The position numbers and the translations under genes were made by a program. Positions 6,831 to 61,669 of a stretch of 64,000 bases of DNA are shown here, piece after piece. Where the stretch lies: NCBI RefSeq assembly GCF_033807715.1, contig NC_084600.1, forward strand, positions 45,508,324 through 45,572,323. The letters run 5' to 3'. Origin of the DNA: Cololabis saira. Taxonomy: Eukaryota > Chordata > Actinopteri > Beloniformes > Belonidae. Below the pieces are notes generated by a model. It made no database searches, was not told the origin of the DNA, and saw only the letters and a list, made by a program, of their open reading frames with translations. The stretch's first letter is position 1, and each line of letters begins with the position of its first letter.

Positions 6831-6930
6831 CGATACGAGCCGGGTCACTGTAGTCCTCCACCGGCTCTATGTGGGGCTTCAGATCTTCCCCTTCGTACCC
6901 TGAATTGATCCACTTGTCCTTCATGACTTG
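6831..6930 (-). CDS. mark4: mark4 exon e10: end of kinase domain and linker to UBA
   Basis: This 100-bp exon (33 codons plus one base) encodes QVMKDKWINSGYEGEDLKPH then IEPVEDYSDPARI and the first base of the next codon. It closes the kinase fold (MKDKWIN) and starts the acidic linker that docks the UBA domain back on the N-lobe. MARK4 has KDKWINIGYEGEELKPYTEP at this place. The acceptor is GTTTCTGCAG|CAAGTC and the donor is CGTATCG|GTGAGTGAC. A single unit of the 31-bp minisatellite found at 1-2847 lies 18 bases into the downstream intron. The next exon (UBA) should lie left of position 1. Confidence 0.94.
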
Positions 6931-6991
6931 CTGCAGAAACAGAAACACAGAAACATAGAAACACAGACAAGCCTCGTCAAAGCGTCAGCCA

Positions 6992-9440
6992 GAGTTTCTG
7001 CTTCACTCCCGTCTGGTTTGTGAGTTTCTGCTTCACTCCCGTCTGGTTTGTGAGTTTCTGCTTCACTACCGTCCGGTTTGTGAGTTTCTGCTTCACTCCC
7101 GTCCGGTTTGTGAGTTTCTGCTTCACTCCCGTCTGGTTTGTGAGTTTCTGCTTCACTCCCGTCCGGTTTGTGAGTTTCTGCTTCTCTCCCGTCCGGTTTG
7201 TGAGTGAGTTTCTGCTTCACTCCCGTCTGGTTTGTGAGTGAGTTTCTGCTTCACTCCCGTCCGGTTTGTGAGTTTCTGCTTCACTCCCGTCTGGTTTGTG
7301 AGTTTCTGCTTCACTCCCGTCTGGTTTGTGAGTTTCTGCTTCTCTCCCGTCTGGTTTGTGAGTTTCTGCTTCACTCCCGTCCGGTTTGTGAGTTTCTGCT
7401 TCTCTCCCGTCCGGTTTGTGAGTTTCTGCTTCACTCCCGTCCGGTTTGTGAGTTTCTGCTTCTCTCCCGTCCGGTTTGTGAGTGAGTTTCTGCTTCACTC
7501 CCGTCTGGTTTGTGAGTGAGTTTCTGCTTCACTCCCGTCCGGTTTGTGAGTTTCTGCTTCACTCCCGTCTGGTTTGTGAGTTTCTGCTTCACTCCCGTCT
7601 GGTTTGTGAGTTTCTGCTTCTCTCCCGTCCGGTTTGTGAGTTTCTGCTTCACTCCCGTCCGGTTTGTGAGTTTCTTCTTCACTCCCGTCTGGTTTGTGAG
7701 TTTCTGCTTCTCTCCCGTCTGGTTTGTGAGTTTCTGCTTCACTCCCGTCCGGTTTGTGAGTTTCTGCTTCACTCCCGTCTGGTTTGTGAGTTTCTGCTTC
7801 ACTCCCGTCCGGTTTGTGAGTTTCTGCTTCTCTCCCGTCTGGTTTGTGAGTTTCTGCTTCACTCCCGTCCGGTTTGTGAGTTTCTGCTTCACTCCCGTCC
7901 GGTTTGTGAGTTTCTGCTTCACTCCCGTCTGGTTTGTGAGTTTCTGCTTCTCTCCCGTCTGGTTTGTGAGTTTCTGCTTCACTCCCGTCCGGTTTGTGAG
8001 TGAGTTTCTGCTTCACTCCCGTCTGGTTTGTGAGTTTCTGCTTCACTCCCGTCTGGTTTGTGAGTGAGTTTCTGCTTCACTCCCGTCCGGTTTGTGAGTG
8101 AGTTTCTGCTTCACTCCCGTCTGGTTTGTGAGTTTCTGCTTCACTCCCGTCCGGTTTGTGAGTTTCTGCTTCACTCCCGTCTGGTTTGTGAGTTTCTGCT
8201 TCACTCCCGTCTGGTTTGTGAGTTTCTGCTTCTCTCCCGTCCGGTTTGTGAGTGAGTTTCTGCTTCACTCCCGTCTGGTTTGTGAGTTTCTGCTTCACTC
8301 CCGTCCGGTTTGTGAGTTTCTGCTTCTCTCCCGTCCAGTTTGTGAGTTTCTGCTTCACTCCCGTCCGGTTTGTGAGTTTCTGCTTCTCTCCCGTCTGGTT
8401 TGTGAGTTTCTGCTTCACTCCCGTCTGGTTTGTGAGTTTCTGCTTCACTCCCCTCCGGTTTTTGAGTTTCTGCTTCACTCCCGTCCGGTTTGTGAGTTTC
8501 TGCTTCACTCCCGTCTGGTTTGTGAGTGAGTTTCTGCTTCACTCCCCTCCGGTTTTTGAGTTTCTGCTTCTCTCCCGTCCGGTTTGTGAGTTTCTGCTTC
8601 ATTCCCGTCCGGTTTGTGAGTTTCTGCTTCTCTCCCGTCCGGTTTGTGAGTGAGTTTCTGCTTCTCTCCCGTCTGGTTTGTGAGTTTCTGCTTCACTCCC
8701 GTCCGGTTTGTGAGTTTCTGCTTCACTCCCGTCCGGTTTGTGAGTTTCTGCTTCACTCCCGTCAGGTTTGTGAGTTTCTGCTTCACTCCCGTCTGGTTTG
8801 TGAGTTTCTGCTTCTCTCCCGTCTGGTTTGTGAGTTTCTGCTTCTCTCCCGTCTGGTTTGTGAGTTTCTGCTTCTCTCCCGTCTGGTTTGTGAGTTTCTG
8901 CTTCTCTCCCGTCTGGTTTGTGAGTTTCTGCTTCACTCCCGTCCGGTTTGTGAGTTTCTGCTTCACTCCCCTCCGGTTTTTGAGTTTCTGCTTCACTCCC
9001 CTCCGGTTTTTGAGTTTCTGCTTCTCTCCCGTCTGGTTTGTGAGTGAGTTTCTGCTTCACTCCCGTCTGGTTTGTGAGTGAGTTTCTGCTTCACTCCCGT
9101 CTGGTTTGTGAGTTTCTGCTTCTCTCCCGTCTGGTTTGTGAGTTTCTGCTTCACTCCCGTCCGGTTTGTGAGTTTCTGCTTCACTCCCGTCTGGTTTGTG
9201 AGTTTCTGCTTCACTCCCGTCTGGTTTGTGAGTTTCTGCTTCACTCCCGTCTGGTTTGTGAGTTTCTGCTTCACTCCCGTCTGGTTTGTGAGTTTCTGCT
9301 TCACTCCCGTCTGGTTTGTGAGTTTCTGCTTCACTCCCGTCCGGTTTGTGAGTTTCTGCTTCACTCCCGTCCGGTTTGTGAGTTTCTGCTTCTCTCCCGT
9401 CTGGTTTGTGAGTTTCTGCTTCACTCCCGTCTGGTTTGTG
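6992..9440. repeat. 30/34-bp minisatellite (about 80 units) filling the e9-e10 intron
   Basis: The unit begins GAGTTTCTGCTTCACTCCCG and ends TCTGGTTTGT. Variation is mainly CACTCC/CTCTCC, GTCTGG/GTCCGG and an optional GTGA insertion that makes 34-bp units. A few units have CCCTCCGGTTTTT. On the transcribed strand the array starts about 10 bases after the e9 donor and stops about 60 bases before the e10 acceptor. Multiples of 30 keep frames open on both strands, so the many reading frames ([24 protein letters not shown] types) are repeat translations, not genes. Confidence 0.97.
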
Positions 9441-9448
9441 TCTCTTAC

Positions 9449-9568
9449 CTCCAGCGTGCAGCGCTTGGTCGGGTTCAGCACCAGGAACCGGCGCAGGATT
9501 CCCTCGCAGTCGGTGGACATGTAGAAGGGAACGCGGTACTTTCCCCTCAGCACACGCTCCCTCAGCTC
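9449..9568 (-). CDS. mark4: mark4 exon e9: kinase C-lobe end
   Basis: This 120-bp exon (40 codons, phase 0) encodes [20 protein letters not shown], then [48 protein letters not shown] is the strongest MARK4 signature in the window; MARK1-3 have LLK(K/R)FL.LNP.KRGTLE. The acceptor is GCCCTACAG|GAGCTG, followed upstream (9573 onward) by a 31-bp minisatellite. The donor is CTGGAG|GTAAGAGACAC, with a 30-bp minisatellite beginning about 10 bases into the intron. The open frame continues past the donor through the minisatellite, but that extension is repeat translation, not protein. Confidence 0.95.
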
Positions 9569-9572
9569 CTGT

Positions 9573-9990
9573 AGGGCGGGAAATAGAGAATCAGGTACAG
9601 AATCAGGCGGGAAATAGAGAATCAGGTGGAGAATCAGGCGGGAAATAGAGAATCAGGTACAGAATCAGGCGGGAAATAGAGAATCAGGTAGAGAATCAGG
9701 CGGGAAATGGAGAATCAGGTGGAGAATCAGGCGGGAAATAGAGAATCAGGTACAGAATCAGGCGGGAAGTAGAGAATCAGGTGGAGAATCAGGCGGGAAA
9801 TAGAGAATCAGGTACAGAATCAGGCGGGAAATAGAGAATCAGGTGGAGAATCAGGCGGGAAATAGAGAATCAGGTAGAGAATCAGGCGGGAAATGGAGAA
9901 TCAGGTGGAGAATCAGGCGGGAAATAGAGAATCAGGTGGAGAATCAGGCGGGAAATAGAGAATCAGGTACGGAATCAGGTGGAGAATCAG
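9573..9990. repeat. 31-bp minisatellite abutting the e9 acceptor (about 13 units)
   Basis: Units of GCGGGAAATAGAGAATCAGG plus TACAGAATCAG or TGGAGAATCAG start within five bases of the e9 3' splice site. The transcribed strand reads CTCTATTTCCCGC, giving repeated pyrimidine-rich tracts leading to the true acceptor. Confidence 0.95.
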
Positions 9991-10380
9991 GCAGCAAACG
10001 CTTCCGAACCAGTGGTGGACTTGCCCCGTTACTATGACGATGGGTCCATGGGAAAGGCCCCTGGGAACCTAACCCTAACCTTGAGGTTCTGTCCGTTACC
10101 GTCCCAACCAGTGGGGACTAGGGATGGGCGGTTTGGACTATAAAAAAGTATAACGATAATTTCTGGCATTTATCCTGATAACGATAAAAATGACGATAAA
10201 AAAATACCAATTCAACTCCACCTTTGTAACTATAAATCTATCACCACATTCAGTCTTTGGAGCCAAAACACTGCTGTAAAAGATACTAAATACTAAACTA
10301 CACCCATTACATTGAATTAATAACAAACAATTAAATTAGTCTGTACTGCAAAACTGGAATGACTCCTCGCTCTCAGATCC

Positions 10381-10533
10381 GTTGTTCGTTCGTTCGTTCG
10401 TTCGTTCGTTCGTTCGTTCGTTCGTTCGTTCGTTCGTTCGTTCGTTCGTTCGTTCGTTCGTTCGTTCGTTCGTTCGTTCGTTCGTTCGTTCGTTCGTTCG
10501 TTCGTTCGTTCGTTCGTTCGTTCGTTCGTTCGT

Positions 10534-10611
<78 letters not shown>

Positions 10612-10621
10612 TTCCTTCCTT
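10381..10621. repeat. (GTTC)n then (TTTC)n microsatellite
   Basis: About 38 GTTC units (10381-10534) switch to about 18 TTTC units and then a few TTCC. The transition implies a single substitution that was itself amplified. Reading frames such as (SFVR)n and (NERT)n here are artefacts of the repeat. Confidence 0.98.
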
Positions 10622-10635
10622 CACGTACGTTGTGC

Positions 10636-10666
10636 GTGGATTTAACACAGAACCATAAATCTGACT
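10636..10666. mobile_element. MITE right-end fragment
   Basis: GATTTAACACAGAACCATAA followed by ATCTGAC matches the right end of the palindromic MITE at 17889-18020 (GATTTAACGCGGAACCATAA). It suggests that the microsatellite beside it replaced the rest of a MITE. Confidence 0.5.
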
Positions 10667-10903
10667 TTACATAAAAACGTCACCAACGGGAATTTATCGT
10701 TTTTACTGTGAGATACAAATTCTTACCGTGGGGAATTTTCTTGACGGTTCATCGTCAAAAACACGATAAACCCGTTACCGTGGGAACCTAACCCTCACCT
10801 TAAGGTTCTGTCCGTTACCGTGGGAACCAGCGGGGACTTGCCCCGTTACCATGGGAACCAGCCGGGAGCTAACCCTCACCCTCACCTTGAGGTTGTCCCG
10901 TTA

Positions 10904-11053
<150 letters not shown>

Positions 11054-11093
11054 TCAAAGCTCAGGGCGTAAGAGAAAACCAGCAGAGGTTTCA

Positions 11094-11620
<527 letters not shown>

Positions 11621-11715: not shown

Positions 11716-14089
11716 GAGCGTAATCTGCTGGTGAACGAGTGAACTATTCCGTAATCTGCTGGTGAACGAGTGAACTATTCCGTAATCTGCTGGTGAACGA
11801 GTGAACTATTCCCCCGGAGCCTAATCTGCTGGTGAATGAGTGAACTATTCCGTAATCTGCTGGTGAACGAGTGAACTATTCCCCCGGAGCGTAATCTGCT
11901 GGTGAACGAGTGAACTATTCTGTAATCTGCTGGTGAACGAGTGAACTATTCCGTAATCTGCTGGTGAACGAGTGAACTATTCCCCCGGAGCGTAATCTGC
12001 TGGTGAACGAGTGAACTATTCCCCCGGAGCGTAATCTGCTGGTGAACGAGTGAACTATTCCCCCGGAGCGTAATCTGCTGGTGAACGAGTGAACTATTCT
12101 GTAATCTGCTGGTGAACGAGTGAACTATTCCGTAATCTGCTGGTGAACGAGTAAACTATTCTGTAATCTGCTGGTGAACGAGTGAACTATTCCCCCGGAG
12201 CGTAACCTGCTGGTGAACGAGTGAACTATTCCGTAATCTGCTGGTGAACGAGTGAACTATTCCCCCGGAGCGTAATCTGCTGGTGAACGAGTGAACTATT
12301 CCGTAATCTGCTGGTGAACGAGTAAACTATTCTGTAATCTGCTGGTGAACGAGTGAACTATTCCGTAATCTGCTGGTGAACGAGTGAACTATTCCGTAAT
12401 CTGCTGGTGAACGAGTAAACTATTCTGTAATCTGCTGGTGAACGAGTGAACTATTCCGTAATCTGCTGGTGAACGAGTGAACTATTCCCCCGGAGCGTAA
12501 TCTGCTGGTGAACGAGTGAACTATTCCGTAATCTGCTGGTGAACGAGTGAACTATTCCGTAATCTGCTGGTGAACGAGTGAACTATTCCGTAATCTGCTG
12601 GTGAATGAGTGAACTATTCCGTAATCTGCTGGTGAACGAGTGAACTATTCCGTAATCTGCTGGTGAACGAGTGAACTATTCCCCCGGAGCGTAATCTGCT
12701 GGTGAACGAGTGAACTATTCCGTAATCTGCTGGTGAACGAGTGAACTATTCCCCCGGAGCGTAATCTGCTGGTGAACGAGTGAACTATTCCGTAATCTGC
12801 TGGTGAATGAGTGAACTATTCCGTAATCTGCTGGTGAACGAGTGAACTATTCCGTAATCTGCTGGTGAACGAGTGAACTATTCCCCCGGAGCGTAATCTG
12901 CTGGTGAACGAGTGAACTATTCCCCCGGAGCGTAATCTGCTGGTGAACGAGTGAACTATTCTGTAATCTGCTGGTGAACGAGTGAACTATTCCGTAATCT
13001 GCTGGTGAACGAGTAAACTATTCTGTAATCTGCTGGTGAACGAGTGAACTATTCCCCCGGAGCGTAACCTGCTGGTGAACGAGTGAACTATTCCGTAATC
13101 TGCTGGTGAACGAGTGAACTATTCCCCCGGAGCGTAATCTGCTGGTGAACGAGTGAACTATTCCGTAATCTGCTGGTGAACGAGTAAACTATTCTGTAAT
13201 CTGCTGGTGAACGAGTGAACTATTCCGTAATCTGCTGGTGAACGAGTGAACTATTCCGTAATCTGCTGGTGAACGAGTAAACTATTCTGTAATCTGCTGG
13301 TGAACGAGTGAACTATTCCGTAATCTGCTGGTGAACGAGTGAACTATTCCCCCGGAGCGTAATCTGCTGGTGAACGAGTGAACTATTCCGTAATCTGCTG
13401 GTGAACGAGTGAACTATTCCGTAATCTGCTGGTGAACGAGTGAACTATTCCGTAATCTGCTGGTGAATGAGTGAACTATTCCGTAATCTGCTGGTGAACG
13501 AGTGAACTATTCCGTAATCTGCTGGTGAACGAGTGAACTATTCCCCCGGAGCGTAATCTGCTGGTGAACGAGTGAACTATTCCGTAATCTGCTGGTGAAC
13601 GAGTGAACTATTCCCCCGGAGCGTAATCTGCTGGTGAACGAGTGAACTATTCCGTAATCTGCTGGTGAATGAGTGAACTATTCCGTAATCTGCTGGTGAA
13701 CGAGTGAACTATTCCGTAATCTGCTGGTGAACGAGTGAACTATTCCCCCGGAGCGTAATCTGCTGGTGAATGAGTGAACTATTCCGTAATCTGCTGGTGA
13801 ACGAGTGAACTATTCCGTAATCTGCTGGTGAATGAGTGAACTATTCCGTAATCTGCTGGTGAATGAGTGAACTATTCCGTAATCTGCTGGTGAACGAGTG
13901 AACTATTCCGTAATCTGCTGGTGAACGAGTGAACTATTCCGTAATCTGCTGGTGAATGAGTGAACTATTCCGTAATCTGCTGGTGAACGAGTGAACTATT
14001 CCGTAATCTGCTGGTGAACGAGTGAACTATTCCGTAATCTGCTGGTGAACGAGTGAACTATTCCGTAATCTGCTGGTGAACGAGTGAAC
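11716..14089. repeat. 31/39-bp minisatellite with an 862-bp higher-order repeat
   Basis: The short unit is TAATCTGCTGGTGAACGAGT plus GAACTATTCCG (31 bp). The long unit has CCCCCGGAGCG at its end (39 bp). Minor variants are GAATGAG, GTAAACTATTCT and TAACCTG. The order of variants from about 12004 to 12865 repeats from 12866 to about 13760 with an offset of 862 bp (for example TAACCTG at 12203 and 13065, and GAATGAG at 12603 and 13465). That equals 19 short plus 7 long units and indicates a block duplication. It fills most of the e6-e7 intron. Confidence 0.95.
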
Positions 14090-14203
14090 TGATGAATGAG
14101 TGAACTGGTGAATGAGTGAACTGGTGAACTGGTGAATGAGTGAACTGGTGAACGAGTGAACTGGTGAACTGGTGAATGAGTGAACTGATGAACGAGTGAA
14201 CTC
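14090..14203. repeat. 17-bp sub-repeat joining the e6 donor
   Basis: CTGGTGAATGAGTGAA-type units (GAACGAG/GAATGAG alternating) lead directly into the e6 5' splice site, where the transcript reads AAG|GTGAGTTCACTCG then GTTCACTCATTCACCA. The larger 31/39-bp units contain the same 17-bp block, so this donor-proximal part may be the ancestral form. Confidence 0.88.
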
Positions 14204-14205: not shown

Positions 14206-14262
14206 CTTCAGGTCTCGGTGGACGATGTTCTTGGTGTGGCAGTAGTGGACGGCAGAGACGAT
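14206..14262 (-). CDS. mark4: mark4 exon e6: catalytic HRD loop
   Basis: This 57-bp exon (19 codons, phase 0) encodes IVSAVHYCHTKNIVHRDLK. HRDLK is the catalytic loop with the proton-acceptor Asp. SAVHYCH and KNIVH fit MARK4. The family normally has HQK where this copy has HTK; a sequence error or a true substitution cannot be separated here. The acceptor is GTCCCCACAG|ATCG and the donor is CTGAAG|GTGAGTTCACTCG. From the fourth base on, the donor-side intron is already the 17-bp sub-unit of the 2.5-kb minisatellite at 11716-14200. A (GGTCAA)n-type array lies about 13 bases before the acceptor. Confidence 0.93.
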
Positions 14263-14274
14263 CTGTGGGGACGA

Positions 14275-14352
14275 GACAAGGTCAAGGTCAAGGTCAAGAC
14301 AAGGTCAAGACAAGGTCAAGGTCAAGACAAGGTCAAGGTCAGACCTCAAGGT
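14275..14352. repeat. (GGTCAA)n-type hexamer array near e6 acceptor
   Basis: GGTCAAGGTCAAGACAAGGT-type repeats start about 13 bases upstream (in the transcript) of the e6 acceptor. The transcript strand is (CTTGAC)n, pyrimidine-rich. Confidence 0.9.
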
Positions 14353-14392
14353 CAGAGCTCGTACCAGCAGGAACCGGCAGGTGAATCATTAC

Positions 14393-14624
14393 CTAATAAT
14401 TAATTAATAGTTAATAGTTACCTAATAATTAATTAATAGTTAACGGTTACCTAATAATTAATTAATAGTTAATAGTTACCTAATAATTAATTAATAGTTA
14501 ATAGTTACCTAATAATTAATTAATAGTTAACGGTTACCTAATAATTAATTAATAGTTAATAGTTACCTAATAATTAATTAATAGTTAATAGTTACCTAAT
14601 AATTAATTAATAGTTAATTCTTAC
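14393..14624. repeat. 29-bp array in exact register with the e5 donor (8 units)
   Basis: On the transcribed strand intron bases 1-29 begin GTAAGAATTAAC and end AATTATTAG. Each following 29-bp unit begins GTAACTATTAAC or GTAACCGTTAAC and ends AATTATTAG, so every unit boundary reads TAG|GTAAC(T/C) like the real CAG|GTAAGA. Eight units occupy 232 bp of the 362-bp intron. The real splice donor is the first unit of the array, differing mainly at positions +5 and +6. Confidence 0.95.
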
Positions 14625-14695
14625 CTGTCTAAACTTTGCTCTGGCTTCAACTTCCTTCATCCTCCCATGAGACACGAGGTAGTCGAACACTTCCC
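14625..14695 (-). CDS. mark4: mark4 exon e5: alpha-D/alpha-E segment
   Basis: This 71-bp exon completes a Gly codon and encodes [20 protein letters not shown] then FRQ. LVSHGRM is a MARK4 marker (other MARKs usually have LVAHGRM). One residue is unusual: MKEVEAR where the family normally has MKEKEAR, a Lys-to-Val change on a surface helix. Both junctions are remarkable. The acceptor TTTTATTTCCAG|GGGAAGT is repeated about 20 times, including the first seven exon bases, in the upstream intron (14696-15790). The donor CAG|GTAAGA is the first member of an array of 29-bp units in the downstream intron (14393-14624). Both introns are essentially nothing but these repeats. Confidence 0.92.
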
Positions 14696-15790
14696 CTGGA
14701 AATAAAACCATAACTATTAATGTAAAACCATTAATAAATAACTTCACCTGGAAATAAAACCATAACTATTAATGTAAAACCATTAATAAATAACTTCACC
14801 TGGAAATAAAACCAGAAACATTAACTTCCCCTGGAAATAAAACCATAAACATTAACTTCCCCTGGAAATAAAACCATAAACATTAACTTCCCCTGGAAAT
14901 AAAACCATAAACATTAATATAAAACCATAAACATTAACTTCCCCTGGAAATAAAACCATAAACATTAATATAAAACCAGAAACATTAATATAAAACCATA
15001 AACATTAACTTCCCCTGGAAATAAAACCATAAACATTAACTTCCCCTGGAAATAAAACCATAAACATTAACTTCCCCTGGAAATAAAACCATAAACATTA
15101 ATATAAAACCAGAAACATTAACTTCCCCTGGAAATAAAACCATAAACATTAACTTCCCCTGGAAATAAAACCATAAATATTAATATAAAACCATAAACAT
15201 TAACTTCCCCTGGAAATAAAACCATAAACATTAATATAAAACCAGAAACATTAACTTCCCCTGGAAATAAAACCAGAAACATTAATATAAAACCATAAAC
15301 ATTAACTTCCCCTGGAAATAAAACCATAAACATTAACTTCCCCTGGAAATAAAACCATAAACATTAACTTCCCCTGGAAATAAAACCATAAACATTAATG
15401 TAAAACCTGGAAATAAAACCATAAACATTAATGTAAAACCTGGAAATAAAACCATAAACATTAATATAAAACCATAAACATTAACTTCCCCTGGAAATAA
15501 AACCATAAATATTAACTTCCCCTGGAAATAAAACCATAAACATTAACTTCCCCTGGAAATAAAACCATAAACATTAACTTCCCCTGGAAATAAAACCATA
15601 AACATTAACTTCCCCTGGAAATAAAACCATAAACATTAACTTCCCCTGGAAATAAAACCATAAACATTAAAACTACAACCATTAACTTCACCTGGAAATA
15701 AATCCATTTACCATTAATATAAAACCATTAATAAATAACTTCACCTGGAAATAAAACCATAAACATTAACTTCACCTGGAAATGAAACCA
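14696..15790. repeat. 31-bp array copying the e5 acceptor and exon start (about 25 copies)
   Basis: Transcribed-strand units read TTTTATTTCCAG|GGGAAGT followed by TAATGTTTATGG. The segment around the bar is identical to the e5 3' splice site plus the first seven exon bases. About 20 copies are exact and about 5 have CCAG|GTGAAGT. Some units are spaced by shorter AT-rich sub-units (TATAAAACCATAAACATTAA). The whole e4-e5 intron is made of this array. Confidence 0.95.
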
Positions 15791-15887
15791 TTAACCATTA
15801 AAACCACTACCATTAATGTAAAAACACAACCGTTAATGTAAAACCACAACGTTAAACCCTAACCATTAACGTAATGAAAGTCCTCAC

Positions 15888-15953
15888 CTCCGCTGGCGTA
15901 CTCCATCACCAGGTAAAGGGTTTTGTCCGTCTCAATCACCTCGAACAGCTGGA
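15888..15953 (-). CDS. mark4: mark4 exon e4: hinge region
   Basis: This 66-bp exon starts with the last two bases of a Val codon and encodes [20 protein letters not shown] followed by G plus one base of the next Gly. VMEYASGG is the kinase hinge and the start of the linker that contacts adenine. Human MARK4 has SAG at this place, so this copy is SGG like the other MARKs. The acceptor is TTTATTTACAG|TCCAG and the donor is GCGGAG|GTGAGG. It is separated from e3 by an ordinary 139-bp intron without repeats. The exon is normal in length and phase for the family. Confidence 0.92.
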
Positions 15954-16092: not shown

Positions 16093-16141
16093 CGATGTTC
16101 GGGTGATTCAAGCCTTTCATTATTCGAACCTCCCGGAAAAG
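16093..16141 (-). CDS. mark4: mark4 exon e3: alpha-C helix
   Basis: This 49-bp exon (16 codons plus one base) encodes LFREVRIMKGLNHPNI and donates the first base of the next Val codon. The Glu of LFREV is the alpha-C glutamate that pairs with the VAIK lysine in the active kinase. MKGLNHPN is typical of MARK4; other MARKs usually have MKILNHPN or MKVLNHPN. The acceptor is CCTCTTTCAG|CTTTTC and the donor is ACATCG|GTAAGTTA. This exon follows the giant satellite-bearing intron. Its own junctions are not associated with tandem repeats, which makes it a useful contrast to its neighbours. Confidence 0.92.
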
Positions 16142-16775: not shown

Positions 16776-17345
16776 AAACTAACCCTAACCCCAACCCCAA
16801 CCCTAACTCTAACCCCTAACCCTTACCCTTACCCTAACTCTAACCCCTAACCCTTACCCTTACCCTAACTCTAACCCCTAACCCTTACCCTTACCCTAAC
16901 TCTAACCCCTAACCCTTACCCTTACCCTAACTCTAACCCTAGCTCTAACCCTAACCCCTAACCCTAACCCTAACCCCTAACCCCTAACCCTAACCCTAAC
17001 CCCTAACCCCTAACCCCTAACCCTAACCCTTACCCTAACTCTAACCCTAGCTCTAACCCTAACTCTAACCCCAACCCTAACTCTAACCCCTAACCCTAAC
17101 CCTAACCCCTAACCCTAACCCCTAACCCTAACTCTAACCCCTAACCCTAACCCTAACCCCTAACCCCTAACCCTAACCCCTAACCCCTAACCCTAACCCC
17201 TAACCCTAACCCTAACCCCTAACCCTAACCCCTAACCCTAACCCCAACCCCTAACTCTAACCCCTAACCCTAACCCCTAACCCTAACTCTAACCCTAGCT
17301 CTAACCCTAACCCTAACCCCAACCCCAACCCTAACCCTAACCCAG
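16776..17345. repeat. degenerate telomere-like repeat (CCCTAA variants)
   Basis: TAACCCTAACCC, TAACCCCTAACCC, CTTACCC and TAACTCTAACCC variants run without interruption. A compound unit CCTTACCCTAACTCTAACCC is itself repeated at the start. In the pre-mRNA this is G-rich (GGGTTAG). Confidence 0.93.
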
Positions 17346-21384: not shown

Positions 21385-21712
21385 ACCAGGATTCCTTGTG
21401 AACAGAGCATGTGCAGAAAACAACTTCCTGTTCAGTTTGATGGGGATATTCCGTTAGGTGTTTACATGACCCAATAATCAGTTTTAAAAGGAGTAACCCA
21501 GGGCTCATATTGGGGGTTTTAAAAACCTTAATATGAGTAAATTCTGGTTATTAAAGGGGTTATTGGTGTTTACATGGCCGTGTAACCGGGTTATTGATCA
21601 TATTCGGGTTTTAAAAGGTTATTAATGCTGGAAACACAGTCATTAACAGCGTTTCCTCGTTGTGTCTGAAAACACCGACATGAACAAACGGGAGTTTGTC
21701 AACGACGTAAAC
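21385..21712. other. intron sequence, probable old repeat
   Basis: GTTTACATGACCCAATAATC and GTTTACATGGCCGTGTAACC, with repeated GGGGTTATT/GGGTTATTGATC segments, look like a degenerate dispersed element. No ends were established. It leads into the satellite. Confidence 0.4.
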
Positions 21713-48700: not shown

Positions 48701-51700
48701 CGTAAACTCAACCGTCAGACGTAAACTCAACCGTCAGACGTAAACTCAACCGTCAGACGTAAACTCAACCGTCAGACGTAAACTCAACCGTCAGAGACGT
48801 AAACTCAACCGTCAGAGACGTAAACTCAACCGTCAGACGTAAACTCAACCGTCAGACGTAAACTCAACCGTCAGACGTAAACTCAACCGTCAGACGTAAA
48901 CTCAACCGTCAGACGTAAACTCAACCGTCAGACGTAAACTCAACCGTCAGACGTAAACTCAACCGTCAGACGTAAACTCAACCGTCAGACGTAAACTCAA
49001 CCGTCAGAGACGTAAACTCAACCGTCAGACGTAAACTCAACCGTCAGACGTAAACTCAACCGTCAGACGTAAACTCAACCGTCAGACGTAAACTCAACCG
49101 TCAGACGTAAACTCAACCGTCAGACGTAAACTCAACCGTCAGACGTAAACTCAACCGTCAGACGTAAACTCAACCGTCAGACGTAAACTCAACCGTCAGA
49201 CGTAAACTCAACCGTCAGAGACGTAAACTCAACCGTCAGACGTAAACTCAACCGTCAGAGACGTAAACTCAACCGTCAGACGTAAACTCAACCGTCAGAC
49301 GTAAACTCAACCGTCAGACGTAAACTCAACCGTCAGACGTAAACTCAACCGTCAGAGACGTAAACTCAACCGTCAGAGACGTAAACTCAACCGTCAGACG
49401 TAAACTCAACCGTCAGACGTAAACTCAACCGTCAGACGTAAACTCAACCGTCAGAGACGTAAACTCAACCGTCAGACGTAAACTCAACCGTCAGACGTAA
49501 ACTCAACCGTCAGACGTAAACTCAACCGTCAGACGTAAACTCAACCGTCAGACGTAAACTCAACCGTCAGAGACGTAAACTCAACCGTCAGACGTAAACT
49601 CAACCGTCAGACGTAAACTCAACCGTCAGACGTAAACTCAACCGTCAGACGTAAACTCAACCGTCAGACGTAAACTCAACCGTCAGACGTAAACTCAACC
49701 GTCAGACGTAAACTCAACCGTCAGAGACGTAAACTCAACCGTAAACTCAACGTCAGACGTAAACTCAACCGTCAGACGTAAACTCAACCGTCAGGACGTA
49801 AACTCAACCGTCAGACGTAAACTCAACCGTCAGACGTAAACTCAACCGTCAGAGACGTAAACTCAACCGTAAACTCAACCGTCAGACGTAAACTCAACCG
49901 TCAGACGTAAACTCAACCGTCAGACGTAAACTCAACCGTCAGACGTAAACTCAACCGTCAGACGTAAACTCAACCGTCAGACGTAAACTCAACCGTCAGA
50001 CGTAAACTCAACCGTCAGACGTAAACTCAACCGTCAGACGTAAACTCAACCGTCAGACGTAAACTCAACCGTCAGACGTAAACTCAACCGTCAGACGTAA
50101 ACTCAACCGTCAGACGTAAACTCAACCGTCAGACGTAAACTCAACCGTCAGACGTAAACTCAACCGTCAGACGTAAACTCAACCGTCAGACGTAAACTCA
50201 ACCGTCAGACGTAAACTCAACCGTCAGACGTAAACTCAACCGTCAGACGTAAACTCAACCGTCAGACGTAAACTCAACCGTCAGACGTAAACTCAACCGT
50301 CAGAGACGTAAACTCAACCGTCAGACGTAAACTCAACCGTCAGACGTAAACTCAACCGTCAGACGTAAACTCAACCGTCAGACGTAAACTCAACCGTCAG
50401 AGACGTAAACTCAACCGTCAGACGTAAACTCAACCGTCAGACGTAAACTCAACCGTCAGACGTAAACTCAACCGTCAGACGTAAACTCAACCGTCAGAGA
50501 CGTAAACTCAACCGTCAGACGTAAACTCAACCGTCAGACGTAAACTCAACCGTCAGACGTAAACTCAACCGTCAGACGTAAACTCAACCGTCAGACGTAA
50601 ACTCAACCGTCAGACGTAAACTCAACCGTCAGACGTAAACTCAACCGTCAGAGACGTAAACTCAACCGTCAGACGTAAACTCAACCGTCAGACGTAAACT
50701 CAACCGTCAGACGTAAACTCAACCGTCAGACGTAAACTCAACCGTCAGACGTAAACTCAACCGTCAGACGTAAACTCAACCGTCAGACGTAAACTCAACC
50801 GTCAGAGACGTAAACTCAACCGTCAGACGTAAACTCAACCGTCAGACGTAAACTCAACCGTCAGACGTAAACTCAACCGTCAGACGTAAACTCAACCGTC
50901 AGACGTAAACTCAACCGTCAGACGTAAACTCAACCGTCAGAGACGTAAACTCAACCGTCAGACGTAAACTCAACCGTCAGACGTAAACTCAACCGTCAGA
51001 CGTAAACTCAACCGTCAGAGACGTAAACTCAACCGTCAGACGTAAACTCAACCGTCAGACGTAAACTCAACCGTCAGACGTAAACTCAACCGTCAGACGT
51101 AAACTCAACCGTCAGACGTAAACTCAACCGTCAGACGTAAACTCAACCGTCAGACGTAAACTCAACCGTCAGAGACGTAAACTCAACCGTCAGACGTAAA
51201 CTCAACCGTCAGACGTAACTCAACGTCGAAACTCAACCGTCAGACGTAAACTCAACCGTCAGACGTAAACTCAACCGTCAGAGACGTAAACTCAACCGTC
51301 AGACGTAAACTCAACCGTCAGACGTAAACTCAACCGTCAGACGTAAACTCAACCGTCAGACGTAAACTCAACCGTCAGAGACGTAAACTCAACCGTCAGA
51401 CGTAAACTCAACCGTCAGACGTAAACTCAACCGTCGAGACGTAAACTCAACCGTCAGAGACGTAAACTCAACCGTCAGACGTAAACTCAACCGTCAGACG
51501 TAAACTCAACCGTCAGACGTAAACTCAACCGTCAGACGTAAACTCAACCGTCAGACGTAAACTCAACCGTCAGACGTAAACTCAACCGTCAGACGTAAAC
51601 TCAACCGTCAGACGTAAACTCAACCGTCAGACGTAAACTCAACCGTCAGACGTAAACTCAACCGTCAGACGTAAACTCAACCGTCAGAGACGTAAACTCA

Positions 51701-54700
51701 ACCGTCAGACGTAAACTCAACCGTCAGACGTAAACTCAACCGTCAGACGTAAACTCAACCGTCAGACGTAAACTCAACCGTCAGACGTAAACTCAACCGT
51801 CAGACGTAAACTCAACCGTCAGACGTAAACTCAACCGTCAGACGTAAACTCAACCGTCAGACGTAAACTCAACCGTCAGACGTAAACTCAACCGTCAGAC
51901 GTAAACTCAACCGTCAGGACGTAAACTCAACCGTCAGAGACGTAAACTCAACCGTCAGACGTAAACTCAACCGTCAGACGTAAACTCAACCGTCAGACGT
52001 AAACTCAACCGTCAGAGACGTAAACTCAACCGTCAGACGTAAACTCAACCGTCAGACGTAAACTCAACCGTCAGACGTAAACTCAACCGTCAGACGTAAA
52101 CTCAACCGTCAGACGTAAACTCAACCGTCAGAGACGTAAACTCAACCGTCAGACGTAAACTCAACCGTCAGACGTAAACTCAACCGTCAGACGTAAACTC
52201 AACCGTCAGACGTAAACTCAACCGTCAGACGTAAACTCAACCGTCAGACGTAAACTCAACCGTCAGACGTAAACTCAACCGTCAGAGACGTAAACTCAAC
52301 CGTCAGACGTAAACTCAACCGTCAGAGACGTAAACTCAACCGTCAGACGTAAACTCAACCGTCAGAGACGTAAACTCAACCGTCAGACGTAAACTCAACC
52401 GTCAGACGTAAACTCAACCGTCAGACGTAAACTCAACCGTCAGACGTAAACTCAACCGTCAGACGTAAACTCAACCGTCAGACGTAAACTCAACCGTCAG
52501 ACGTAAACTCAACCGTCAGACGTAAACTCAACCGTCAGACGTAAACTCAACCGTCAGACGTAAACTCAACCGTCAGACGTAAACTCAACCGTCAGACGTA
52601 AACTCAACCGTCAGACGTAAACTCAACCGTCAGACGTAAACTCAACCGTCAGACGTAAACTCAACCGTCAGAGACGTAAACTCAACCGTCAGACGTAAAC
52701 TCAACCGTCAGAGACGTAAACTCAACCGTCAGACGTAAACTCAACCGTCAGACGTAAACTCAACCGTCAGACGTAAACTCAACCGTCAGACGTAAACTCA
52801 ACCGTCAGACGTAAACTCAACCGTCAGACGTAAACTCAACCGTCAGACGTAAACTCAACCGTCAGAGACGTAAACTCAACCGTCAGACGTAAACTCAACC
52901 GTCAGACGTAACTCAACCGTCAGACGTAAACTCAACCGTCAGACGTAAACTCAACCGTCAGAGACGTAAACTCAACCGTCAGACGTAAACTCAACCGTCA
53001 GACGTAAACTCAACCGTCAGACGTAAACTCAACCGTCAGAGACGTAAACTCAACCGTCAGACGTAAACTCAACCGTCAGACGTAAACTCAACCGTCAGAC
53101 GTAAACTCAACCGTCAGACGTAAACTCAACCGTCAGAGACGTAAACTCAACCGTCAGACGTAAACTCAACCGTCAGAGACGTAAACTCAACCGTCAGACG
53201 TAAACTCAACCGTCAGACGTAAACTCAACCGTCAGACGTAAACTCAACCGTCAGACGTAAACTCAACCGTCAGACGTAAACTCAACCGTCAGACGTAAAC
53301 TCAACCGTCAGACGTAAACTCAACCGTCAGACGTAAACTCAACCGTCAGAGACGTAAACTCAACCGTCAGACGTAAACTCAACCGTCAGACGTAAACTCA
53401 ACCGTCAGACGTAAACTCAACCGTCAGACGTAAACTCAACCGTCAGACGTAAACTCAACCGTCAGACGTAAACTCAACCGTCAGACGTAAACTCAACCGT
53501 CAGACGTAAACTCAACCGTCAGACGTAAACTCAACCGTCAGAGACGTAAACTCAACCGTCAGACGTAAACTCAACCGTCAGACGTAAACTCAACCGTCAG
53601 ACGTAAACTCAACCGTCAGACGTAAACTCAACCGTCAGACGTAAACTCAACCGTCAGACGTAAACTCAACCGTCAGACGTAAACTCAACCGTCAGACGTA
53701 AACTCAACCGTCAGACGTAAACTCAACCGTCAGACGTAAACTCAACCGTCAGACGTAAACTCAACCGTCAGAGACGTAAACTCAACCGTCAGACGTAAAC
53801 TCAACCGTCAGACGTAAACTCAACCGTCAGACGTAAACTCAACCGTCAGACGTAAACTCAACCGTCAGACGTAAACTCAACCGTCAGACGTAAACTCAAC
53901 CGTCAGACGTAAACTCAACCGTCAGACGTAAACTCAACCGTCAGACGTAAACTCAACCGTCAGACGTAAACTCAACCGTCAGACGTAAACTCAACCGTCA
54001 GACGTAAACTCAACCGTCAGACGTAAACTCAACCGTCAGACGTAAACTCAACCGTCAGACGTAAACCAACCGTCAGACGTAAACTCAACCGTCAGACGTA
54101 AACTCAACCGTCAGAGACGTAAACTCAACCGTCAGAGACGTAAACTCAACCGTCAGAGACGTAAACTCAACCGTCAGACGTAAACTCAACCGTCAGACGT
54201 AAACTCAACCGTCAGACGTAAACTCAACCGTCAGAGACTTAAACTCAACCGTCAGAGACGTAAACTCAACCGTCAGAGACGTAAACTCAACCGTCAGACG
54301 TAAACTCAACCGTCAGACGTAAACTCAACCGTCAGAGACGTAAACTCAACCGTCAGACGTAAACTCAACCGTCAGACGTAAACTCACCGTCAGACGTAAA
54401 CTCAACCGTCAGACGTAAACTCAACCGTCAGACGTAAACTCAACCGTCAGACGTAAACTCAACCGTCAGACGTAAACTCAACCGTCAGACGTAAACTCAA
54501 CCGTCAGAGACGTAAACTCAAACCGTCAGACGTAAACTCAACCGTCAGACGTAAACTCAACCGTCAGACGTAAACTCAACCGTCAGAGACGTAAACTCAA
54601 CCGTCAGACGTAAACTCAACCGTCAGAGACGTAAACTCAACCGTCAGACGTAAACTCAACCGTCAGGACGTAAACTCAACCGTCAGACGTAAACTCAACC

Positions 54701-57700
54701 GTCAGACGTAAACTCAACCGTCAGACGTAAACTCAACCGTCAGACGTAAACTCAACCGTCAGAGACGTAAACTCAACCGTCAGACGTAAACTCAACCGTC
54801 AGACGTAAACTCAACCGTCAGAGACGTAAACTCAACCGTCAGACGTAAACTCAACCGTCAGACGTAAACTCAACCGTCAGAGACGTAACTCAACCGTCAG
54901 ACGTAAACTCAACCGTCAGACGTAAACTCAACCGTCAGAGACGTAAACTCAACCGTCAGACGTAAACTCAACCGTCAGACGTAAACTCACCGTCAGACGT
55001 AAACTCAACCGTCAGACGTAAACTCAACCGTCAGACGTAAACTCAACCGTCAGAGACGTAAACTCAACCGTCAGACGTAAACTCAACCGTCAGACGTAAA
55101 CTCAACCGTCAGACGTAAACTCAACCGTCAGACGTAAACTCAACCGTCAGACGTAAACTCAACCGTCAGACGTAAACTCAACCGTCAGAGACGTAAACTC
55201 AACCGTCAGACGTAAACTCAACCGTCAGACGTAAACTCAACCGTCAGAGACGTAAACTCAACCGTCAGACGTAAACTCAACCGTCAGAGACGTAAACTCA
55301 ACCGTCAGACGTAAACTCAACCGTCAGACGTAAACTCAACCGTCAGACGTAAACTCAACCGTCAGACGTAAACTCAACCGTCAGACGTAAACTCAACCGT
55401 CAGACGTAAACTCAACCGTCAGACGTAAACTCAACCGTCAGACGTAAACTCAACCGTCAGACGTAAACTCAACCGTCAGACGTAAACTCAACCGTCAGAG
55501 ACGTAAACTCAACCGTCAGACGTAAACTCAACCGTCAGAGACGTAAACTCAACCGTCAGACGTAAACTCAACCGTCAGACGTAAACTCAACCGTCAGAGA
55601 CGTAAACTCAACCGTCAGAGACGTAAACTCAACCGTCAGAGACGTAAACTCAACCGTCAGACGTAAACTCAACCGTCAGACGTAAACTCAACCGTCAGAC
55701 GTAAACTCAACCGTCAGACGTAAACTCAACCGTCAGAGACGTAAACTCAACCGTCAGACGTAAACTCAACCGTCAGACGTAAACTCAACCGTCAGACGTA
55801 AACTCAACCGTCAGACGTAAACTCAACCGTCAGACGTAAACTCAACCGTCAGACGTAAACTCAACCGTCAGACGTAAACTCAACCGTCAGACGTAAACTC
55901 AACCGTCAGAGACGTAAACTCAACCGTCAGACGTAAACTCAACCGTCAGACGTAAACTCAACCGTCAGACGTAAACTCAACCGTCAGACGTAAACTCAAC
56001 CGTCAGACGTAAACTCAACCGTCAGACGTAAACTCAACCGTCAGACGTAAACTCAACCGTCAGACGTAAACTCAACCGTCAGACGTAAACTCAACCGTCA
56101 GACGTAAACTCAACCGTCAGACGTAAACTCAACCGTCAGACGTAAACTCAACCGTCAGAGACGTAAACTCAACCGTCAGACGTAAACTCAACCGTCAGAC
56201 GTAAACTCAACCGTCAGACGTAAACTCAACCGTCAGACGTAAACTCAACCGTCAGACGTAAACTCAACCGTCAGACGTAAACTCAACCGTCAGACGTAAA
56301 CTCAACCGTCAGACGTAAACTCAACCGTCAGACGTAAACTCAACCGTCAGAGACGTAAACTCAACCGTCAGACGTAAACTCAACCGTCAGACGTAAACTC
56401 AACCGTCAGACGTAAACTCAACCGTCAGACGTAAACTCAACCGTCAGACGTAAACTCAACCGTCAGACGTAAACTCAACCGTCAGACGTAAACTCAACCG
56501 TCAGAGACGTAAACTCAACCGTCAGACGTAAACTCAACCGTCAGACGTAAACTCAACCGTCAGACGTAAACTCAACCGTCAGACGTAAACTCAACCGTCA
56601 GACGTAAACTCAACCGTCAGACGTAAACTCAACCGTCAGACGTAAACTCAACCGTCAGACGTAAACTCAACCGTCAGACGTAAACTCAACCGTCAGACGT
56701 AAACTCAACCGTCAGACGTAAACTCAACCGTCAGACGTAAACTCAACCGTCAGACGTAAACTCAACCGTCAGACGTAAACTCAACCGTCAGACGTAAACT
56801 CAACCGTCAGACGTAAACTCAACCATCAGAGACGTAAACTCAACCGTCAGACGTAAACTCAACCGTCAGACGTAAACTCAACCGTCAGACGTAAACTCAA
56901 CCGTCAGACGTAAACTCAACCGTCAGACGTAAACTCAACCGTCAGACGTAAACTCAACCGTCAGACGTAAACTCAACCGTCAGACGTAAACTCAACCGTC
57001 AGACGTAAACTCAACCGTCAGACGTAAACTCAACCGTCAGACGTAAACTCAACCGTCAGACGTAAACTCAACCGTCAGACGTAAACTCAACCATCAGACG
57101 TAAACTCAACCGTCAGACGTAAACTCAACCGTCAGACGTAAACTCAACCGTCAGACGTAAACTCAACCGTCAGACGTAAACTCAACCGTCAGACGTAAAC
57201 TCAACCGTCAGACGTAAACTCAACCGTCAGAGACGTAAACTCAACCGTCAGACGTAAACTCAACCGTCAGACGTAAACTCAACCGTCAGACGTAAACTCA
57301 ACCGTCAGACGTAAACTCAACCGTCAGACGTAAACTCAACCGTCAGACGTAAACTCAACCGTCAGACATAAACTCAACCGTCAGACGTAAACTCAACCGT
57401 CAGACGTAAACTCAACCGTCAGACGTAAACTCAACCGTCAGACGTAAACTCAACCGTCAGAGACGTAAACTCAACCGTCAGAGACGTAAACTCAACCGTC
57501 AGAGACGTAAACTCAACCGTCAGAGACTTAAACTCAACCGTCAGACGTAAACTCAACCGTCAGAGACGTAAACTCAACCGTCAGAGACGTAAACTCAACC
57601 GTCAGACGTAAACTCAACCGTCAGACGTAAACTCAACCGTCAGACGTAAACTCAACCGTCAGACGTAAACTCAACCGTCAGACGTAAACTCAACCGTCAG

Positions 57701-57826
57701 ACGTAAACTCAACCGTCAGACGTAAACTCAACCGTCAGAGACGTAAACTCAACCGTCAGACGTAAACTCAACCGTCAGACGTAAACTCAACCGTCAGACG
57801 TAAACTCAACCGTCAGACGTAAACTC
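21713..57826. repeat. 36-kb satellite of a 19-bp unit (about 1,900 copies), in register with the e2 donor
   Basis: The unit is CGTAAACTCAACCGTCAGA on the plus strand; the transcript reads GTTGAGTTTACGTCTGACG. A 21-bp variant (CAGAGACG) is interspersed at 21.7-24.9 kb and 47.4-57.8 kb. The core 24.9-47.1 kb is almost perfectly uniform, with exceptions near 27921, 35609, 35828-35868 and 41681. The last unit merges with the e2 5' splice site: intron bases 1-18 are GTGAGTTTACGTCTGACG, one T short of the unit. Each unit has two CpGs and a stop in every frame cycle, so there is no long open frame. Confidence 0.98.
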
Positions 57827-57828
57827 AC

Positions 57829-57882
57829 CTTCTGAAGGCTCGTCGGGTTCAGCTGAGTTTTGTCAATGATTTTTATTGCAAC
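57829..57882 (-). CDS. mark4: mark4 exon e2: VAIK lysine exon
   Basis: This 54-bp exon (18 codons, phase 0 both ends) encodes VAIKIIDKTQLNPTSLQK. It holds the beta-3 lysine of the VAIK motif that positions ATP phosphates and is essential in all active protein kinases. The acceptor is TCTTCCAG|GTTGCA and the donor is CAGAAG|GTGAGTTTACG. The donor runs straight into the 36-kb 19-bp satellite: intron bases 1-18 are themselves a satellite unit lacking one T. The next exon, e3, is 41.7 kb away across that array, so correct splicing of this intron is demanding. The LNPTSLQK ending resembles MARK1/3 (human MARK4 has LNPSSLQK), but the neighbouring exons support MARK4. Confidence 0.93.
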
Positions 57883-58025: not shown

Positions 58026-58027
58026 TG

Positions 58028-58127
58028 TTGTTCCTAAAGTTGTTCCCAAAGTTGTTCCCAAAGTTGTTCCCAAAGTTGTTCCCAAAGTTGTCCCTAAAGT
58101 TGTTCCCAAAGTTGTTCCTAAAGTTGC
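58028..58127. repeat. 12-bp repeat AAAGTTGTTCCC
   Basis: About eight copies of GTTGTTCCCAAA with CCTAAA and GTCCCTAAA variants. Confidence 0.9.
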
Positions 58128-58378: not shown

Positions 58379-58379
58379 T

Positions 58380-60378: not shown

Positions 60379-60382
60379 CATT

Positions 60383-61207
60383 CGCCCTAACATCCCGTTA
60401 GCATCACCTCCCGGCCCGTTAGCATCACCTCCCGGCCCGTTAGCATCACCTTTTCTCTCTTTTGTCCATGTTGCAGCATCCTTTGCCGGACACCGGAACC
60501 TGCAGGTGTTCGTGGGTGGCTTGTAGCTTGCATTACGGAGCACAAGTCTTTCCCCGACCCTGCACCCCAACCTGGGACTTGCTGATTGGGCCGGAGCTTC
60601 GGGAGCTGTGTGCTGGCCTGCGGTCCCCACCCCCGGTCATCCCGTTGCTGCTTCCACCTGCCTGCTGTGCTGTTGCCGTCCCTGACCCACCAGTCTGGCC
60701 CTCGGCAGGAGGGTCCCCCCTTATGAGCCTGGTCCTGGTCCAGGTTTCTTCCCTCCTAAAGGGGAGTTTTTCCTTGCCACTGTTTGGCTTAAGGTTTTTC
60801 TCCCACTAGGGGAGTTTTTACCTGCCATTGTTTATGTAATAACTGCTCGGGGGTCATGTTCTGGGTATGGGTCTCTGGAAAGCGTCTAAAGACAACTCTG
60901 TTGTATTAGACGCTATATAAATAAAATTGAATTGAATTGAATTGAACCTCCCGGCCCGTTAGCCTCACCTCCCGGCCCGTTAGCCTCACCTCCCGGCCCG
61001 TTAGCCTCACCTCCCGGCCCGTTAGCCTCACCTCCCGGCCCGTTAGCCTCACCTCCCGGCCCGTTAGCCTCACCTCCCGGCCCGTTAGCATCACCTCCCG
61101 GCCCGTTAGCCTCACCTCCCGACCCGTTAGCCTCACCTCCCGACCCGTTAGCCTCACCTCCCGGCCCGTTAGCATCACCTCCCGGCCCATTAGCCTCACC
61201 TCCCGGC
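60383..61207. repeat. 21-bp minisatellite downstream of e1, split by a LINE
   Basis: CACCTCCCGGCCCGTTAGCC plus T (or CATCACC variants) occurs about three times at 60383-60452 and about twelve times at 60946-61207. The L2-like fragment lies between. The transcribed unit AACGGGCCGGGAG|GTGAGG resembles the e1 end GACGGGAAAAGAG|GTGAGA (12 of the 17 bases up to GTGA match), so the array may descend from that junction. The long MRLTGREV-type reading frame is an artefact. Confidence 0.93.
60453..60945 (+). mobile_element. L2-like LINE 3' end with (ATTGA)n tail
   Basis: The sequence around GGTCTCTGGAAAGCGTCTAA, AGACAACTCTGTTGTATTAG and ACGCTATATAAATAAAATTG ending in repeated ATTGA is the common teleost L2-type LINE 3' region. 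It is 5'-truncated and inserted into the 21-bp minisatellite. The 115-residue frame at 60462-60809 is within it and is not a gene. Confidence 0.75.
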
Positions 61208-61243
61208 CCTTAGCGCTAGCGTTAGGGTTAGCATTAGCGTTAA

Positions 61244-61271
61244 GGTTCTCACCTCTCTTCCCGTCAGGATG
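61244..61271 (-). repeat. duplicate of e1 3' edge with a second 5' splice site
   Basis: ATCCTGACGGGAAGAGAG|GT followed by GAGAACC is a copy, one base changed, of the real e1 end 50 bp upstream in the transcript. The GT is intact. Using it would add 50 bases and shift the frame. Confidence 0.85.
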
Positions 61272-61302
61272 TTAGCATTAGCATTAGCATTGGGGTTCTC
61301 AC

Positions 61303-61500
61303 CTCTTTTCCCGTCAGGATGTGCCGCGCCAGCTTGACCTTGGCGAAGTTCCCCTTGCCGATGGTCTTGAGGAGGCGGTAGTTTCCGATGTGCGGCGTCT
61401 CGTCGGAGCAGGAGGCGATGGAGTTCCTGCAGCGAGCGCCCAGCGAGCGGCTGGACTGGCTGGTGGACTTGTCCGAGCGGCTGGAGCCCAGGGAGACGTG
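61303..61500 (-). CDS. mark4: mark4 exon e1: end of N-terminal header and start of kinase N-lobe
   Basis: This 198-bp exon (66 codons, phase 0 at both ends) reads from [11 protein letters not shown] to ARHILTGKE. Residues 15-31 carry the Ser-rich header [18 protein letters not shown], which is close to mammalian MARK4. Kinase homology begins at [20 protein letters not shown], which contains the glycine-rich ATP loop. The 3' splice site is CCCTCCAG|CAC at 61501 and the 5' splice site is AAAGAG|GTGAG at 61302. Both edges are duplicated in the flanking introns. A copy of the 3' edge with an intact GT lies 50 bp into the downstream intron (61251-61271). A copy of the 5' edge with AG lies at 61622-61669, beyond a LINE fragment. 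Codons are GC-rich at third positions, unlike the AT-rich surroundings. Confidence 0.93.
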
Positions 61501-61524
61501 CTGGAGGGAAACGAGGGTTAGGGT

Positions 61525-61621
61525 TAGGGTTAAGATAAGATAAGATAAACCTTTAATAGTCCCACAGAGGGGAAATTTGCAACAGAGGGGAAATTTGCAA
61601 TTAGCCATCACACACTTATAT
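61525..61621 (-). mobile_element. non-LTR retrotransposon 3' end (Rex1-like) with TTATC tail
   Basis: On the minus strand CCTCTGTGGGACTATTAAAG precedes GTTTATCTTATCTTATCTTA, the 3' tail type of several fish non-LTR elements. It is only about 95 bp long, 5'-truncated, and flanked by a 47-48 bp duplication (61475-61521 and 61622-61669) that includes the e1 3' splice site. Confidence 0.55.
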
Positions 61622-61669
61622 GAGCGGCTAGCTCTCAGGGAGACGTGCTGGAGGGAAACGGAGGGTTAG
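61622..61669 (-). repeat. duplicate of e1 5' edge and 3' splice site
   Basis: CCCTCCGTTTCCCTCCAG|CA continuing to CGTCTCCCTG repeats the e1 acceptor and first bases (real copy around 61475-61521) 147-148 bp upstream in the transcript. The AG is intact, so this is a potential decoy acceptor. Confidence 0.85.

Follow-up and report, generated by a model that had tools for sequence, protein, structure and literature searches.

A MARK4-type kinase gene rich in tandem repeats

The stretch analysed here, referred to as the window, comprises 64,000 nucleotides of Cololabis saira (assembly GCF_033807715.1, contig NC_084600.1, positions 45,508,324 to 45,572,323), and the subject is the set of tandem repeats found at the splice junctions of one of its genes. 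This gene encodes a MARK4-type kinase and lies on the minus strand with ten exons in the window. It was located by means of tblastn with a MARK4 sequence as the query, and the exact exon edges were then determined. All 20 exon edges bear GT or AG, and the joined exons form a single open frame of 317 residues, which encodes the full kinase domain. The closest solved structure is that of MARK4 (5es1, E 2.2e-181). The coding exons, all on the minus strand and assigned on the basis of the open frame (for e1 also the exon edges), are e1 (61303..61500), e2 (57829..57882), e3 (16093..16141), e4 (15888..15953), e5 (14625..14695), e6 (14206..14262), e7 (11109..11243), e8 (10925..11026), e9 (9449..9568), and e10 (6831..6930).

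Most of the window consists of tandem repeats. The 104 overlapping repeat rows were merged by hand into 26 arrays; rows past position 63,000 were excluded. A Pfam match (PF24388) was set aside because it is located in translated repeat, and a search of Rfam at gathering scores yielded no match. All results refer to a single gene in a single sequence, which was picked for its striking look.

Copies of splice junctions in the adjoining introns

A window of 40 bases at each junction was used to scan for same-strand copies within 3 kb, and a score of at least 34 was regarded as strong. Furthermore, the sequence on either side of every exon edge was printed and inspected. Strong copies were found at seven of the 20 junctions, namely the e1 acceptor, e1 donor, e2 donor, e5 acceptor, e5 donor, e7 acceptor, and e8 donor. 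Of 58 overlapping tiles from exon interiors and 20 inverted searches, none reached this score in the same scan. Copies at five of the 20 junctions contain clear exon bases, which means that boundary-spanning units are present: 12 exon bases are copied at the e1 acceptor, 20 at the e1 donor, 7 at the e5 acceptor, 16 at the e7 acceptor, and 17 at the e8 donor. Both types of boundary, the donors of e1 and e8 and the acceptors of e1, e5, and e7, were thus copied together with exon bases. The following matches were not counted as exon-bearing. The seven matched exon bases of the e2 donor are a partial resemblance inside a 36 kb array; the eight matched bases of the e8 acceptor have a score of 22, which is at chance level, and the match is the e7 acceptor; the e5 and e6 donors contribute two and zero exon bases, respectively. 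The exon-bearing copies are situated in introns, and the coding frame is unbroken across the ten exons.

At three further donors, those of e2, e5, and e6, the register of the repeat begins at or within the donor. Arrays that lack exon bases end 6 bp from the e9 acceptor (score 28), 8 bp from the e9 donor (score 24), and 11 bp from the e6 acceptor. The scan score of the e6 donor is 29, and the other junctions score 16 to 25, which is about the level of the inverted searches and of the exon interiors. A short repeat lies 3 bp from the e10 acceptor, an edge that was absent from the original prediction. At the acceptors of e2, e3, e4, and e8 and the donors of e3, e4, and e7, neither the junction scan nor the array distances revealed anything; the array nearest to the e4 donor is 32 bp away. 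The original prediction had listed about 11 repeat-associated edges and an orphan unit at the e10 donor, and all of these check out. Its statements that the units differ in sequence from junction to junction, that exon bases are included at several junctions, and that local sequence repeatedly gave rise to the pattern agree with our findings.

The individual families are all on the minus strand. An upstream copy of the e1 acceptor (61614..61677, e.g. 61668-61636) was detected by the junction scan and by a longer alignment, which, mismatches included, continues for 34 bases in exon-derived sequence. There are two copies of the e1 acceptor in all, about 150 bp apart. The e1 donor family (60946..61322) consists of one copy with 20 exon bases (61272-61233) followed by a 21-mer array, in which most units contain GAG/GTGAGG (slashes in sequence motifs mark the splice position). 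The detached end of this array (60394..60451) lies past an unrelated segment (60452..60945), which is probably a mobile element.

Most of intron 2 is occupied by a 19-mer array of GAGTTTACGTCTGACGGTT (21704..57827), which is 36 kb long and runs in register from +3 of the e2 donor. When this array is split at GAGTTTACGTC, 1735 of 1881 pieces share one sequence, and a further 118 represent a single 21-base variant with an extra CT. The number of canonical units per 2 kb is 102-105 of 105 from about 46 to 26 kb, and 74-98 nearer the ends. Such ends, more varied than the centre, are the usual mark of homogenisation, which ends escape.

The intron 4 array (14696..15855) contains TTTCCAGG 27 times, and 20 of these occurrences are inside TTTATTTCCAGGGGAAGT, which equals the e5 acceptor plus seven exon bases (an example is the copy 15663-15639). 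Four copies in intron 4 read TTTATTTCCAGGTGAAGT, that is CAG/GTGAAGT, an acceptor fused to a weak donor; we take these to resemble recursive (stepping-stone) splice sites. In intron 5, a 29-mer array (14389..14624) with units of the form AG/GTAA...TAG is in register with the e5 donor from +1, and the match extends from -2. With their AG/GTAA start, TATTAAC-like interior, and TAG end, these 29-base units look like a miniature intron that is too short for splicing. A CTTGAC-type array (14274..14354) is the one that stops 11 bp from the e6 acceptor.

In intron 6, arrays of TTCACTCG (11719..14202) begin inside the e6 donor at about +4. The e7 acceptor family (11252..11616) contains four decoy acceptors intermixed with CTAACCTCCTCCCTCC units; its four copies lie within 11616-11372, and each matches the 16 exon bases. 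The e8 donor region (10771..10924) contains two donor copies, one with 17 exon bases and the other with nine. Copies of this donor are found at 10815-10771 and 10096-10059, and a shorter one at 10894-10871. The detached copy (10059..10096) has 17 exon bases, a retained GT, and an altered intron base 3. It is separated from the rest of the family by an unrelated segment (10113..10770, limits set by eye), which carries a tetranucleotide microsatellite and is probably a mobile element as well. As both the e1 donor and the e8 donor family are split by unrelated segments, the families are probably older than the insertions. Searches for inverted repeats did not define the limits of these two segments, which lie in introns 1 and 8.

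The arrays at the e9 edges are a 31-mer array (9575..9979) on the acceptor side and a 30-mer array of about 80 copies (6992..9440) on the donor side. The orphan near the e10 donor (6776..6812) is a single unit, 19-55 bp into the intron, that matches the 31-mer of an array reaching the window edge (1..2848). Its score is 44, compared to a best score of 26 in 500 block shuffles; however, two of 260 other stretches of the window reach this score as well.

An artefact of assembling so repetitive a region appears extremely unlikely. Assemblers can err on arrays as large as the one of 36 kb; however, the exon-bearing copies have diverged from their originals and are different at every junction, and the reading frame is intact.

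Comparison with mirage minisatellites

The original prediction knew of no named mechanism that would account for such a pattern. Boundary repeats do have a name in amphioxus, however, and a case is known from the human CBS gene. The term mirage was reportedly introduced in a paper on Adh. Mirages are described as amphioxus repeats that span exon-intron boundaries (PMC3087553), and the reports name a handful of genes: Adh3, the globins BflGb6 and BflGb9, TnC, and PGBD5 (PMC3087553, PMC3902484). The units are given as 10-160 bp long, are tandem copies of either boundary, and in many but not all cases contain AG/GT (PMC3087553, PMC3902484). For the globin mirages, array ends are reported to escape homogenisation (PMC3087553), and length polymorphism and normal splicing are reported for mirages (PMC3087553, PMC3902484). 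Variation in copy number has been reported for Adh3 of amphioxus.

The repeats of the MARK4-type gene share with these mirages the boundary-spanning units, the copying of both sides, AG/GT in many copies, and an intact frame. The locus is a likely vertebrate case of the mirages known from amphioxus. Unlike the amphioxus cases, the gene is of the MARK4 type, and there are five exon-bearing junctions, three donor-register arrays, and one array of 36 kb, which does not itself qualify as a mirage in the strict sense. The amphioxus reports include varying lengths and normal splicing, whereas the present case is one genomic sequence.

In the human CBS gene, a 31-bp variable number tandem repeat (VNTR), described as polymorphic in people, lies across the boundary of exon 13 and intron 13. 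We read its name, c.1444_1467+7(16_21), as 24 exon plus seven intron bases in 16 to 21 copies. As in our gene, the minisatellite unit crosses a donor; in contrast, CBS offers one junction of one gene, and here many junctions of one gene are involved. A tandem duplication that takes in splice-site sequence is also part of the model of Rogers, as cited in PMC3087553 and PMC2812944, in which introns are gained by tandem duplication of AG/GT sites. For human paralogues, intron change driven by tandem repeats has been described (PMC2812944). In such events new introns arise, whereas the introns of a conserved gene were enlarged here. Amphioxus, human, and general cases were among the matches listed in the open-licence literature; a multi-junction case in a vertebrate gene was not among them. 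This kind of repeat is thus already known, and what the listed matches lack is its unusual richness within one vertebrate gene.

A proposed origin by duplication in short introns

The explanation that we favour, and regard as reasonably probable, is that the repeats are mirage-type minisatellites grown by unbiased duplication in short introns. Ordinary slippage during replication, or the repair of breaks, would have produced a tandem duplicate of a short segment in a compact gene. In cases where this segment crossed or reached a junction, splicing would have continued to use the outermost copy, and the inner copies would have turned into intron. As coding would not have been harmed, these inner copies could have multiplied freely by slippage and unequal exchange, and duplications wholly within exons would have been purged by selection. 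Repeated intron by intron, this process would have expanded introns that were probably about 80-140 bp long to kilobases and pressed the arrays against edges protected by splicing. The splicing machinery would presumably ignore the decoys.

The strength of these decoys was estimated with approximate splice-site weights. Decoys whose score equals or exceeds that of the real site comprise 11 donors in intron 1, 25 acceptors in intron 4, three acceptors in intron 6, and two donors in intron 8. Intron 2 contains no such donor and three such acceptors, all of them outside the 36 kb array. Many copies, though not all, have thus retained AG/GT signals: the decoys of introns 1, 4, 6, and 8 stand against nine repeats in intron 4 that carry TTTATATTAAT in place of the acceptor. 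The persistence of strong decoys would be expected if arrays of splice signals were kept because the decoys act, for example in splicing regulation or as stepping stones in long introns. We consider such retention improbable. The largest array has no donor, since GAGTTTACG is preceded by GGTT in 1873 of 1882 occurrences (GGTTGAG in the array compared to GGTGAG in the real donor), introns 5 and 9 contain no decoy that matches the score of the real site, the TTTATATTAAT repeats lack the acceptor, and the uniformity of the other arrays is predicted by homogenisation alone.

A merely positional link between arrays and edges would result if the arrays were born inside the introns and the loss of the remaining intron brought them to edges that could not be deleted. 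This crowding suits the e6 acceptor, the e9 acceptor, the e9 donor, and the e10 acceptor, where the adjacent arrays contain no junction bases. It leaves the 7-20 exon bases in the copies at five junctions unexplained, fits poorly to units that are in register from +1 to +4 at three donors, and is in our view very unlikely as the sole cause.

Placement of arrays relative to exon edges

The original prediction held that slippage or repair is favoured at exon edges and proposed to judge this against present intron length. However, as the arrays made the introns long, the non-array length is the fairer yardstick. Arrays account for 97, 88, 96, and 99% of introns 4, 5, 6, and 9, which leaves 32, 45, 121, and 35 non-array bases, respectively; the array-free introns 3 and 7 comprise 139 and 82 bp. 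With 88-99% array in these four introns and about six bases left in intron 8 on a hand assignment, contact with an edge is hard to avoid. Favoured edges are therefore not needed for introns 4, 5, 6, and 9, and probably not for intron 8, whereas a residue of the claim remains at the donors of the long introns 1 and 2.

In a placement test, which covered the seven of introns 1-9 that carry arrays and thus 14 edges, the non-array bases of each intron were redistributed randomly. On the present introns, ten of the 14 edges have an array within 20 bp, compared to 5.3 expected (P 0.00025). As the arrays lengthened the introns and unrelated segments interrupt two of the families, the test was redone and a forward model was added. 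Counting junction copies as array and dropping the two interrupting segments gave 11 of 14 edges, compared to 7.2 expected (P 0.002). This version was set up by hand: 60394-61302 was merged as one family, and in intron 8, for which six free bases resulted, 9980-10112 and 10771-10924 were treated as array (verified copies only in part) and 10113-10770 was left out. The donors of introns 1 and 2 contribute roughly half of this excess, and intron 6 supplies most of the remainder.

Such an excess is what a true junction bias predicts, in which exon edges are hot spots of tandem duplication, for example because of co-transcriptional structures or repair at transcribed junctions. This alternative is possible, and we regard it as doubtful rather than improbable. 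Copied junctions (7 of 20) are more frequent than copied tiles in array-free intron, where, in introns 1-9 outside the 36 kb array, 21 of 165 tiles have a copy. The corresponding rate among all tiles of these introns, 287 of 436, is nevertheless higher than that of the junctions, so that the comparison of tiles decides neither for nor against a junction bias. (A first control, in which 179 of 580 overlapping array-free tiles were copied, included the duplicated elements of intron 10 and was repeated for introns 1-9.) That exon interiors are never copied and intron tiles mostly are fits duplication anywhere, with exon hits selected away. Furthermore, the case for a bias rests on one gene that was selected as striking, and the overall counts are reproduced by a null model with short introns.

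In this forward model, 21 repeat families in seven introns were seeded uniformly over all segments that touch the intron. Families and unit sizes were judged by eye, and neither the e1 acceptor copy nor intron 10 was included. For introns of 139 bp, the model predicts 10.9 edge-touching and 3.8 exon-including families; 11 of 21 and four, respectively, were observed. A length of 100 bp predicts 14.3 and 4.9. For teleosts, a class of short introns is described whose lengths peak near 76 bp, with a trough at about 256 bp (PMC9438311). At the present free lengths (at least 76 bp), 2.7 exon-including families are predicted (P 0.26).

Several results weigh against unbiased seeding in short introns. 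With 76 bp for all introns, the prediction of 17.5 edge-touching families is far above the 11 seen (6.0 are exon-including); with 256 bp it is only 6.3 (P 0.025; 2.3 exon-including), and with the present free lengths 6.6 (P 0.001). If introns 1, 2, and 8 are given their present free length, four of their 14 families touch an edge, compared to 0.7 expected (P 0.003), and two include exon bases, compared to 0.3 (P 0.025). In introns 4, 5, 6, and 9, all seven families touch an edge, compared to 4.0 at 139 bp (P 0.019), an excess that would favour a bias, and to 6.3 at 76 bp. The agreement at 139 bp is thus an average over introns of differing history. The smallest P values of the placement test belong to the donors of introns 1 (0.0035) and 2 (0.0036), uncorrected for the 14 edges, and are followed by 0.03 and 0.04. 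These two introns would be long even without their arrays (885 and 4065 free bases), and an array is flush with the donor nonetheless; their short ancestry at the time of seeding is an assumption that the model needs. Since no single ancestral length fits all introns, our confidence in the short-intron model is reduced and that in a junction bias is increased. With introns of about 139 bp, unbiased seeding accounts for the overall counts, though not for each group of introns.

Further repeats and elements

Inside the segment that interrupts the e8 donor family, the tetranucleotide array (10380-10622) consists of AAGA-type repeats followed by AACG-type repeats. The e10 orphan and the array at 1-2848 are now about 4 kb apart, and two elements that resemble each other and have GGGGCCTCAT- and ATGAGGCCCC-like ends lie in between (roughly 5490-4140 and 4110-2850). 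Because 31-mer units are found between the elements and beyond the second one, the second element was probably inserted into the array. Another segment of intron 10 (6170-6750) is bounded by CAGGGATCAGCAACC and GGGTTGCCGACTCCTG and contains pyrimidine-rich repeats at 6318-6660; it is presumably of the hAT type. Introns 1 and 2 contain telomere-like GGGTTA and related G-rich repeats (16779-17343, 19595-20016, and 58552-60077), which near 19.8-20.0 kb are partly in a long inverted arrangement.

Implications for intron growth

For other genes, the present case implies that the distance from an array to a splice site needs to be judged against the non-array length of the intron. The locus would also offer natural tests of how a splice site is chosen among dozens of equally strong neighbours. 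It is conceivable, though we would put it forward only tentatively, that exon edges are preferred for tandem duplication in some vertebrate genomes and that introns are extended at their ends as their junctions are copied. If so, edge-preferred duplication would be a general way for short introns to become long and more than a curiosity of amphioxus. With eight of 20 junctions of a vertebrate gene giving rise to copies or arrays, one of these 36 kb long, junction duplication would become a plausible engine of intron growth.

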